In this document: positions 47,054 to 54,182 of the stretch, piece after piece | How the letters are laid out: each line of letters begins with the position of its first letter | How positions within the stretch are numbered: the first letter of the stretch is position 1 | NCBI GenBank assembly: GCA_002862085.1 | Contig: PKCK01000099.1 | Span: 19,490-83,489 of the forward strand | Direction: 5' to 3' | Length of the DNA stretch: 64,000 bases | Source: Planctomycetota bacterium | GTDB lineage: Bacteria; Planctomycetota; UBA1135; GCA-002686595 | The notes under the pieces: model-generated | The model's input: only the letters and a program-made list of their open reading frames with translations | The model's database searches: none | Told to the model about the DNA's origin: nothing | Made by a program: the position numbers and the translations under genes

Positions 47054-47914
47054 TCAGGGTGCCTCGAAGCCTCCAGCAGCGCTCGCGGCGGCGACGAGCG
47101 CGGTGACGTAGCGTTCCGCCTCGGCCGCCGCGGCCGCGTCGGCCCCGGAGGGCGACGCCGCCGCCCCGGCGTGGTGGATCGCGTCCACGAGGGCCGAGCC
47201 GACGATGGCGAGCTCCGCGCGGCCGCGGAGGCTCGCCACCTGCTCCGGCGTGCGAAGGCCGAAACCGAGTCCGAGCGGGACACCCGGCGCCGCGGCGCGC
47301 ACCGCACCGAGCCAGGTGCTGGTCTCGTCGCCCACGGCGGTCGATCGACCGGTGACCCCCACGCGTCCGACCACGTACAGGAAGCCGGTCGTCCGCTCCG
47401 CGGCCTCGGCGAGCCGCTCGGGGCTCGTCGTCGGCGCGCAGAAGAGCGAGAGGGTCAGCCCTCGACCACGCGCGGCCTCCGACAGCGCGCCGGACTCCTC
47501 GACGGGGAGGTCGGGGACGAGGAGGCCATCGAAGCCCGCATCCGCGAGCTCGTCGAGACGCGCCTCGACGCCGCCGGAGAGGAGGGGGTTCAGATAGCTG
47601 AAGCAGATGAGCGGCAGCGCCCCACCGCGCGCTCGGTAGTCGCGCACGCACTGGACGACGCCGTCGAGGGTCGCGCCTCCATCGAGCGCCCGCGCAGCGG
47701 CCGCCTGGAGCACCGGACCGTCCGCGATCGGGTCGCTGAAAGGGACACCGAGCTCCACGCACGACGCCCCCGCGCGCTCCACCGCCTCGAGCAGCGAGCG
47801 GGTGCGCGCGAACCCGCCGTCCCCGGCCGTCAGATAGGGGGCGATTCCGGTGCTCCCGCTCGCGAGCAGGCGCGCGGTGGTCCGCACCAGCCGGTTCCGA
47901 TCGACGTCCGTCAC
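47054..47914 (-). CDS. trpA: tryptophan synthase alpha chain
   Basis: [58 protein letters not shown] start. Confidence 0.95.
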
Positions 47915-51643: not shown

Positions 51644-52248
51644 CGCAGGCTCCCTCCGACCGCCTCGAGGGCCACCGATTCCCCCGCCATCGAGAGGAAG
51701 CGACCCAGCAGCCGCATCCCGAGGGGCGTGAGGATGGACTCGGGATGGAACTGGACGCCGAAGCGCGGCATCGAGCGATGCTCGACCGCCATGACCGCGC
51801 CGTCCTCGGTCCACGCCGTGAGGCGGAGGGACCGGGGCAGCGCGTCGGCACGAGCCCGCAGCGAGTGATAGCGGCCGCAGGTGAGGGGTGAGGGCATCCC
51901 GTCGAAGATCCCCTCGCCCGTGTGGTGGACGAGGCTCGACTTGCCGTGCAAGGGCGCGCCATCCACCTCGAGGGCGCCCCCCTCCGACTCGACCAGGGTC
52001 TGATGGCCGAGGCACACGCCGAGGAGCGGCGTTCCCGCGGGGAGGGCGCGCACCAGGTCCAGGCAGATCCCCGCGTCCGCGGGACGGCCGGGCCCCGGCG
52101 AGAGGACCAGGGCCGAGGGATCGAGCGCGAGGGCTTCGGCGACGTCGAGCTCGTCGTTGCGCACCACGCGCACGTCGGCGCCGAGCATTCCGAGGGCCTG
52201 GTAGAGGTTGAAGACGAACGAGTCGTAGTTGTCGATCAGGAGGATCAT
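51640..52248 (-). CDS. trpG: anthranilate synthase component II
   Basis: MILLIDNYDSFVFNLYQALG, LSPGPGRPADAG, GVCLGHQTLVE, GVQFHPESILTP. Confidence 0.94.
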   Translation of the reverse strand: MILLIDNYDSFVFNLYQALGMLGADVRVVRNDELDVAEALALDPSALVLSPGPGRPADAGICLDLVRALPAGTPLLGVCLGHQTLVESEGGALEVDGAPLHGKSSLVHHTGEGIFDGMPSPLTCGRYHSLRARADALPRSLRLTAWTEDGAVMAVEHRSMPRFGVQFHPESILTPLGMRLLGRFLSMAGESVALEAVGGSLR

Positions 52249-53768
52249 CGAGCGGCCTCCGCGGCCTCGGGGGCGGTGGTGGGCGCGGCCGCGCCCTCTG
52301 GCTGGAAGGCCTCCGACGCGGCCAGCTCGACCGCCTCGAAGAGGGCCTGCGACTTGTGCAGGGTCTCCTCGAACTCGGCCGAGGGGTCGGAGTCGAGCAC
52401 GACGCCGGCGCCCGCCTGGACGAAGAGCTCACCGCGCGAGCAGACGATCGTCCGGATCGCGATCGCCATGTCGAGGTTGCCGGCGCGGTCGAGATACCCG
52501 AAGGCGCCGCCGTAGGCTCCGCGATCACGCTGCTCGATTCCGGCGCACAGGGTCATCGCACGGACCTTGGGCGCCCCGCTGACCGTGCCCGCGGGGAACG
52601 CCGCCTCGAGGGCGTCGATCGCGTCCTTGCCAGCGCTCAGCCTCGCGCGGACCCGGCTCACGAGGTGCTGGACGCGGGGGAAGCGCACGAGCCGGCGGTG
52701 CTCCTCGACCTCGACGCTGCCGAAACTCGCGACGCGACCCGCGTCGTTGCGCGCGAGGTCCACGAGCATGTCGTGCTCGGCGCACTCCTTCTCGTCACGG
52801 CGCAGCTCGGCGCCCAGGCGCGCGTCCTCCTCGGACGTCGCACCGCGGGGGCGGGTCCCCGCGATCGGGACCACCTCGATCCGGCCGTCCTGAACGCTCA
52901 CGAGCCGCTCGGGGCTCGAGCCCACGAGCGTCACATCGCCCGCCTCGAAGAAGAACATGTGCGGCGCCGGGTTCACGAGCCGCAGCACCCGGTACAGAGT
53001 GAAAGCGTCCCCTTCGAAGCGCTGTCGGAAGCGCTGGGAGAGCACGCACTGGAAGATCTCGCCGGCCCGGATCGCCTCCTGCAGGGAGCGGACGCCGGCC
53101 TCGAAGTCCTCGCGAGACATCGAAGGACGCGGCGCGTCCTCCAGCAGCCGGAAGCCACGCTCGGCGGGCGGAACGCCCGCGAGCTCTCGCGCGAGGCGCT
53201 CGACGTGAGCCGCGGCGTCGTGATGATCGGCCTCTCCTCCGGGCGCCGCGCAGAGGATCGTGAGGGTCTGGGCGCCGTGGTCGAAGGCGACCACGTTCGG
53301 GTAGTGATCGAAGAGCGCCTCGGGCTGATCGAAGTCGCGCACGGAGGGCCGCGGGACGCGCTCCTCCAGGGTCGAGGCCCACTCGTAGCTGAGGCTGCCG
53401 ATCCAACCGCCGCGAAACGGCGGCAGGTCGGGGTGCGCGGCCCCGGCCCCGGCGCGCCCGGTGCGCCGCGAGGCCTCTCGGAGGGCATCGGACGGCCCGA
53501 GGGGCAGGATCTCCTCCGCGCCGCTGCCGATCCTGAGGGAAGCGCGCTCCGCCCCGCCGCGGAGCTTCCCGTCAGGGTCCACGGCGACGAAGCTGTGGCT
53601 CGCGAGCCGCTCCGGCCCCTCGACCGACTCCAGCAGCGTTCCCTGACGGCCGGCGGCCCGCAGCAGCTCGAAGGCACGGACCGGGGTCAAGCGATCAGCG
53701 GGGTAGACCGCCCAGGCGAGCTGGTGGGTCGCCGCGTCGGCAGGAGTGGATCGTCGAAGGGGCTTCAT
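52245..53768 (-). CDS. trpE: anthranilate synthase component I
   Basis: GEIFQCVLSQRFRQRF, LVGSSPERLV, PIAGTRPRGATSEED, DLARNDAGRVASFG, FPAGTVSGAPKVRAM, GAFGYLDRAGNLDMAIAIRT. Confidence 0.96.
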   Translation of the reverse strand: MKPLRRSTPADAATHQLAWAVYPADRLTPVRAFELLRAAGRQGTLLESVEGPERLASHSFVAVDPDGKLRGGAERASLRIGSGAEEILPLGPSDALREASRRTGRAGAGAAHPDLPPFRGGWIGSLSYEWASTLEERVPRPSVRDFDQPEALFDHYPNVVAFDHGAQTLTILCAAPGGEADHHDAAAHVERLARELAGVPPAERGFRLLEDAPRPSMSREDFEAGVRSLQEAIRAGEIFQCVLSQRFRQRFEGDAFTLYRVLRLVNPAPHMFFFEAGDVTLVGSSPERLVSVQDGRIEVVPIAGTRPRGATSEEDARLGAELRRDEKECAEHDMLVDLARNDAGRVASFGSVEVEEHRRLVRFPRVQHLVSRVRARLSAGKDAIDALEAAFPAGTVSGAPKVRAMTLCAGIEQRDRGAYGGAFGYLDRAGNLDMAIAIRTIVCSRGELFVQAGAGVVLDSDPSAEFEETLHKSQALFEAVELAASEAFQPEGAAAPTTAPEAAEAAR

Positions 53769-53835
53769 GGAGGGAGGAGTCGGCAGGGGCGGCGGGCGGC
53801 TCGGAGGAGGGGCGGTGAGGGCCCGGCAAAAGGAC

Positions 53836-53869
53836 GCGGGCCCTCGAGAGAGGTCTCTCGAGGGCCCGC
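53836..53869 (-). terminator. trp attenuator terminator hairpin (candidate)
   Basis: Minus strand GCGGGCCCTCGAGAGA-CC-TCTCTCGAGGGCCCGC then GTCC TTTT; perfect 16-bp arms, 68 nt upstream of trpE. Confidence 0.8.
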
Positions 53870-53924
53870 AGGTGTTCGATCGGTCGCGCTCGTCGGCGCG
53901 GGAGGCTCGTGTCGGCTCGGACGG

Positions 53925-54029
53925 TCAGGACGCGCGAGCCGGAGCCCCCGGGGAACACCCGGGGCCCTCGGGCCACCATCGCCAGAGCCAGGAAAGACTC
54001 GCGAGGTTCATGTCGTCGGAGCGGCGCAT
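53925..54029 (-). CDS. trpL: candidate trp leader peptide (alternative start at 54011)
   Basis: MRRSDDMNLASLSWLWRWWPEGPGCSPGAPARAS; four Trp codons within six codons at 53973..53990, directly upstream of the terminator hairpin and trpE. Confidence 0.82.
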   Translation of the reverse strand: MRRSDDMNLASLSWLWRWWPEGPGCSPGAPARAS

Positions 54030-54182
54030 CGCTGAGGGAACACTAGGCCCACGCACGGGTCGCGCCACTCTCGCGTGCTCAAAAATCTCGCGCGGTGCGA
54101 CCCTCGGCCCCAACGGTCTGCCTCGACGTGATCGCGAGCAGATGGCTCCGCTTGCCCCGCCCACGACGGGTCCCCGGGCGCC

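Follow-up and report, generated by a model that had tools for sequence, protein, structure and literature searches.

The tryptophan operon and its leader region

The window, which here refers to the whole stretch of 64,000 nucleotides of planctomycetal DNA that was analysed, harbors a tryptophan-synthesis operon on its minus strand, and the leader region considered here lies directly upstream of the first gene, trpE (Table 1). TrpE, TrpG, TrpF and TrpB were identified by NCBIfam matches, and TrpD, TrpC, TrpA and the DAHP synthase were named from sequence. Relatives of TrpE are encoded in two MAGs (77% and 70% identity) and in Planctomycetes bacterium Poly30 (69%), which we take to be Saltatorellus ferox, and they place the organism in the Planctomycetota, of which Saltatorellus is a member. 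At the E-value used, no TrpE of this type was found in five genomes of the same genus (G017, G025, G046, G123 and G137, 82-90% complete). When the whole window was searched with the Rfam covariance models, only tRNAs scored above the gathering threshold and no leader or T-box family did so, the best weak match being His_leader at 22.9 bits against the 49 needed.

Table 1. Features of the trp operon and its leader, in window positions
Feature	Positions	Strand	Basis or remark
-10-like box TAGTGT	54040..54045	-	sequence; 10 nt 5' of the upstream in-frame ATG
Leader ORF, probably MRRSDDMNLASLSWLWRWWPEGPGCSPGAPARAS and stop (34 aa), start ATG 54029	53925..54029	-	sequence
Alternative leader ATG	54011	-	
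Four Trp codons	within 53990-53973	-	last one 53975-53973
Strand A, antiterminator 5' strand, GAGGGCCCCGGGUGUUC	53953..53969	-	17-bp pairing, covariation; mostly segment 1 of the preliminary description
Strand B (segment 2), CCCCGGGGGCUC	53942..53953	-	3' arm of a local hairpin able to sequester A
Leader stop UGA	53927-53925	-	
Strand 3, antiterminator 3' strand, GAACACCUG-c-GGGCCCUC	53860..53877	-	bulged C 53868; overlaps terminator 5' arm
Terminator 5' arm	53855..53870	-	hairpin search, folding
Strand 4, terminator 3' arm	53835..53850	-	followed by UCCUUUU
trpE	52245..53768	-	operon gene 1; NCBIfam match
trpG	52248-51640	-	NCBIfam match
Operon trpE-trpG-trpD-trpC-trpF-trpB-trpA-aroF-like	down to ~45822	-	

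A second complete trp operon is present in the same assembly (L120, G000:C52:1-14000), with the order trpE-G-D-C/F-B-A together with a DAHP synthase. The leader of this operon, upstream of 3374, has its own peptide, MPHSLPTPLTLSTNWWWWCASEARRG, as well as a terminator-like hairpin. The operon is adjoined by Asp/Cys-rich repeat proteins, and because these neighbors are Myxococcota-like in appearance the contig may represent a contaminant of the MAG, for which contamination is put at 2.77%.

The leader of the window contains a short ORF in which the Trp codons form the cluster WLWRWW, and the peptide core WxWRWWPxGPGCS is kept in three relatives (L001, L002 and L003). In all three the Trp codons (WxWRWW) are followed by GGGYCCCGGGUGUUCCC (some copies have an additional C), about 80-115 nt further on by GAACACYUGCGGRCCC, and finally by the terminator. 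Between the window and Poly30 the leader frame is offset by an indel of 1 nt whereas the hairpin is retained, and therefore it is the RNA rather than the peptide that is conserved there; the same frame shift rules out conservation of the peptide tail at the protein level within the genus.

In 17 of the 25 leaders compared, a TANNNT motif ends 3-12 nt 5' of the leader start, as against a mean of 2.5 leaders and a maximum of 9 in 2000 rounds of shuffling, and a Shine-Dalgarno-like 4-mer occurs in just one of the 25. Judged from these motifs, the leader mRNA is probably near-leaderless. For the predicted -10-like box of the window leader, no good -35 was seen. A further element, AUUUUUGAGCA at ~54087-54077, lies ~31 nt 5' of this box, is common to the window and L001, and is a possible upstream promoter or regulator site. 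The predicted leaderless start and the peptide core conserved in the genus would also suit a leader RNA or peptide that acts in trans in addition to attenuation, as with rnTrpL/peTrpL of Sinorhizobium meliloti (PMC7298713). After its Ser, however, the peptide is frame-shifted between relatives, and such an added role is regarded as improbable.

Competing pairings in the leader RNA

Between positions 47500 and 55700 there is a single instance of a hairpin followed by a T-run, and it lies at 53870-53835, between the leader ORF and trpE. This intrinsic terminator, in which the U-tract is interrupted, is formed by the two segments (3 and 4) to which the preliminary description of the DNA had attributed it, an attribution supported both by folding and by the covariation of the 3:4 pairing across the 25 leaders (z -11.4). 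An exact copy of part of segment 1 had also been described in the 3' arm of the terminator, and is found as CGAGGGCCC at 53846-53838.

Strand A begins 3 nt past the last Trp codon, within the leader ORF, and is able to pair with strand 3 (GAGGGCCC-CGGGUGUUC with GAACACCUG-c-GGGCCCUC) to give a helix of 17 bp with one bulged C and a predicted energy of -33 kcal/mol. Strand 3 overlaps the 5' arm of the terminator, such that the A:3 and 3:4 helices are mutually exclusive, and A, 3 and 4 together form the triple GGGCCC-GGGCCC-GGGCCC. The best A:3 duplex was better than that of 200/200 shuffles (z -4.2). A pairing of this type had been raised previously only as a possible 1:3 interaction, starting from a segment 1 (CGAGGGCCCCGGG, 53970-53958) that was correctly placed two nucleotides after the last Trp codon. 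The possibility is borne out and was in fact understated, in that extension of the segment in the 3' direction by UGUUC produces the 17-bp helix with its one bulge.

The evidence that carries this pairing comes from a cross-species test, in which the 28 nt past the last Trp codon were paired either with the terminator arm of their own leader or with those of other species. The test set comprised 25 non-redundant leaders, of which 24 are from the order of the window, and it includes L082, from the second trp operon described above. Native pairings had a mean of -25.5 kcal/mol compared with a cross mean of -19.4 kcal/mol (z -8.4), a native value that was reached in 0 of 20,000 permutations (p < 5e-5), with species treated as exchangeable and relatedness left out of the model. 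Since related species share both strands, the cross pairs tend to improve, which counts against the A:3 signal. An upstream control region gave z +0.1, and when the helix was split a signal was found both for the terminator-overlapping part alone (z -5.7) and for the 14 nt just 5' of the terminator (z -3.2). In an alignment of the genus, which at four sequences is too small alone for covariation and leaves the weight on the order-wide test, A:3 is paired in 95.6% of cells and three pairs are changed on both sides, as in the replacement of C-G by U-A at columns 27/148. Within strand 3, GAACACYUGCGG is invariant in the four relatives except for one C/U change that turns a G-C pair into G-U.

Long stems come cheaply in this leader, because the region is 72-74% GC, and within the window alone the longest unbroken run of pairs with the terminator arm is not significant (p 0.18). 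Both points are what would be expected of a strong terminator accompanied by chance GC-rich palindromes, with no regulated antiterminator. That reading is opposed by the cross-species pairing test and by the conservation of both the Trp codons and the terminator, and is considered very unlikely.

The preliminary description had proposed the classical logic of 1:2, 2:3 and 3:4 pairings, whereby a ribosome on segment 1 frees segment 2 to pair with GGGCCCUC at 53867-53860. All of the coordinates on which this proposal was built are correct. Segments 1 and 2 can fold into a hairpin of 7 bp, extended by outer pairs, at -20 to -25 kcal/mol, but its stability is close to that of shuffles of the same composition, both in the window (z -0.4) and on average in the 25 leaders (mean z -1.1), and no covariation signal between A and B was detected across the same leaders (z -0.6). 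Similarly, the 8-bp match between segments 2 and 3 is present, at -13 kcal/mol, but A:3 is more stable by 20 kcal/mol, the probability of 2:3 is 0.00 in every computed state, stalled ones included, and 36% of shuffled leaders have one or more 8-bp matches to the terminator arm with no more than two G-U pairs. In the genus alignment 2:3 keeps 80.8% of cells paired, is broken in two of the four species (L002 and L003) and has zero pairs changed on both sides, and in the cross-species test of 25 leaders no signal was obtained from the segment-2 region (z +0.7) or from B against the terminator arm (z 0.0). Segments 2 and 3 thus showed no sign of covarying. The 2:3 antiterminator is rejected on the combination of folding, shuffles, genus alignment and cross-species test, and the chance that segment 2 is the strand set free by the ribosome is put as very slight. 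What stands of the classical scheme is a ribosome-dependent trp attenuator with mutually exclusive hairpins, to which conservation and covariation both point. The assignment of the segments has to be revised, as the partner of the terminator arm is segment 1 (plus UGUUC), inside the ORF, and not segment 2; a strand resembling a "segment 1" can itself be the antiterminator strand.

Ribosome position and the proposed mechanism

Folding was computed on the growing window transcript with and without a ribosome, for which the footprint was assumed to extend 11 nt beyond the A-site codon and 14 nt upstream of the P site. Once strand 3 has emerged and strand 4 has not, the probability of A:3 is 1.00, either without a ribosome or with the first or second Trp codon in the ribosomal A site. 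With the ribosome at Trp codon 3 the terminator-overlapping part of A:3 falls to 0.36, and at Trp codon 4 to 0.00, so that only the stretch of A:3 immediately 5' of the terminator persists. A ribosome over strand A abolishes the whole of A:3 (0.00) and the terminator forms. When the ribosome is at the stop codon, equilibrium folding still predicts A:3. The off state of tryptophan-replete cells would therefore have to depend on kinetics or occlusion, because A:3 is predicted both for this state and for the free RNA.

Taken together, the leader ORF and its conservation, the terminator, and the pairing and covariation of A:3 provide support at the level of sequence for an element that is very probably a ribosome-mediated transcription attenuator of the trp operon. 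In this scheme the transcript, leaderless or nearly so, would start with the short ORF that contains the four Trp codons, and this ORF would be translated. When Trp-tRNA is scarce, the ribosome would stall early in the run of Trp codons, before it reaches strand A, and the exposed strand A would pair with strand 3 as the latter leaves RNA polymerase, taking the 5' arm of the terminator and allowing transcription to enter trpE. With ample tryptophan, the ribosome would pass the Trp codons onto A and B, both of which are part of the ORF. Strand A would then lie under the ribosome, or refold with B after release, or be kept away from strand 3 by a ribosome sitting on the stop codon, and with A unavailable 3:4 would form and transcription would stop. 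In all 29 listed leaders the stop codon falls between the last Trp codon and strand 3, at a distance of 24-69 nt from the former and 23-58 nt from the latter. Points against this scheme are that a stall at Trp codon 3 or 4 would cover part of strand A, that the U-tract of the terminator is broken, that A:B does not covary, and that six of the 35 upstream regions of the order do not carry the element.

Folding of Escherichia coli trpL by the same procedure gave the 1:2 pairing when the RNA was free, and a probability for 2:3 of 0.00 when free, 0.57 when stalled and 0.00 with the ribosome at the stop codon. As this is the textbook contrast, the procedure is able to detect a textbook switch. In the window the four-segment switch of E. 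coli was not reproduced, the antiterminator of the free RNA having a probability of 1.00 as against 0.00 in E. coli, and occlusion of A by a ribosome that has moved past the Trp codons appears to explain this contrast better than the four-segment switch. An E. coli-type arrangement would have A as its segment 2, with a Trp-codon-proximal segment 1 (~53975-53967) that is masked by the stalled ribosome and that would otherwise pair with A or with downstream sequence. In keeping with this, a mini-hairpin, GGCC-NNNG-GGYC, is possible in the four genus members, and one of nine tests gave a weak signal (z -1.9, p 0.03) for pairing of the Trp-codon region with sequence 22-50 nt downstream. In addition, A:3 is blocked in the free RNA of five relatives (L091, L096, L097, L113 and L118) and is regained when the ribosome stalls on the first Trp codon, and some species may therefore have an E. 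coli-like protector. Against it, the free RNA of the window already favors A:3 and the Trp-codon region does not covary with A (z 0.6); the arrangement is judged rather unlikely. Only a little more credence is given to a distinct, three-segment form of trp attenuation in the Planctomycetota, which is offered tentatively: here the antiterminator strand would be coding sequence, the movement of the ribosome onto A would act as the switch, and the mRNA would be leaderless, with a segment 1 of the E. coli type not being required.

Occurrence in the Planctomycetota and relation to known attenuators

A Trp-rich leader ORF followed by a terminator was found in 29 of the 35 readable trpE upstream regions of the order to which the window belongs, a curated count, because both elements were selected by visual inspection of the folded regions before the pairing test. 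The leader has two to four clustered Trp codons in 28 of these regions, and the 29th, L111, is a near copy of L110. No leader element was seen in the other six (L088, L092, L093, L101, L103 and L112).

In a sample of 65 regions upstream of trpE, drawn from across the wider phylum, a W-rich ORF was present in 8, compared with 6 on the reverse strand. A scan filtered for terminators returned 0/65 and missed L145, so the filter was too strict. A general, phylum-wide attenuator is mostly not borne out, and only L145 and three leaders from one genus (L176, L177 and L178) look real. L145 (G305), from a different family, has a WW leader, MTHTRISPAYWWPYSAGTGADAGLPG, with a terminator and a perfect 11-bp A:3 match to the terminator 5' arm, CCGGGACAGGG / CCCUGUCCCGG. 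In L176-L178, from another family, the leader ORF ends GWWWRW or GWLWRW...GRG, with no evident hairpin plus T-run upstream of trpE, and attenuation is possibly Rho-dependent or translational.

With E. coli trpL the window shares tandem Trp codons, a 3:4 terminator, an exclusive antiterminator and a position upstream of trpE. In E. coli, however, segment 2 follows the stop codon and in the free RNA is tied up in the 1:2 hairpin, whereas strand A of the window is inside the ORF and the free RNA prefers A:3. The trp attenuators of Actinobacteria (Corynebacterium, Streptomyces) also have a WW or WWW leader ORF and a GC-rich terminator (PMC1262725, PMC8079986), and the trp leader of Streptomyces lividans is reported to be leaderless (PMC8079986). 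The A-3-4 triple is also reminiscent, at the level of the motif, of the "complementary triples gGCC-rGCy-GGCC" that span antiterminator and terminator in these attenuators, although they belong to a different phylum. In the alphaproteobacterium S. meliloti, trpL / rnTrpL encodes a leaderless, Trp-rich leader peptide that acts in attenuation control (PMC7298713), features that appear to be matched in the window, where the leaderless start is predicted. The nearest studied case in the PVC group is trpRBA of Chlamydia trachomatis, for which the iron-dependent repressor YtgR has been named a Trp-dependent attenuator (PMC7755916). Trp-dependent attenuation of a trp operon would be common to both, but in C. 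trachomatis it is attributed to YtgR whereas the window appears to use a leader-ORF antiterminator.

According to Naville and Gautheret in 2010 (PMC2965389), demonstrated leader-peptide systems were confined to Proteobacteria and Actinobacteria until their own case from the Firmicutes, and no published leader-peptide attenuator from the Planctomycetota was found in the literature searched. The trp attenuator described here is thus very likely, on sequence grounds, a known kind of system in a phylum for which no example was found. If it works as inferred, tight coupling of transcription and translation would be used for regulation in the Planctomycetota, and the element would provide a well-delimited antiterminator for which compensatory mutants are readily designed.

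Two further leaders were observed. L119 (G117), upstream of a trpE paralogue, has a leader region that contains only one Trp codon and that matches a terminator 5' arm over 11 bp, CCGAAGAGGUG / CACCUCUUCGG, and is a possible attenuator with other sensing. L004 (JANYGI010000054.1) comes from a MAG labelled Byssovorax (Myxococcota) and has a WWW leader, a terminator and a TrpE that is 57% identical to that of the window, which suggests mislabelling, contamination or transfer.
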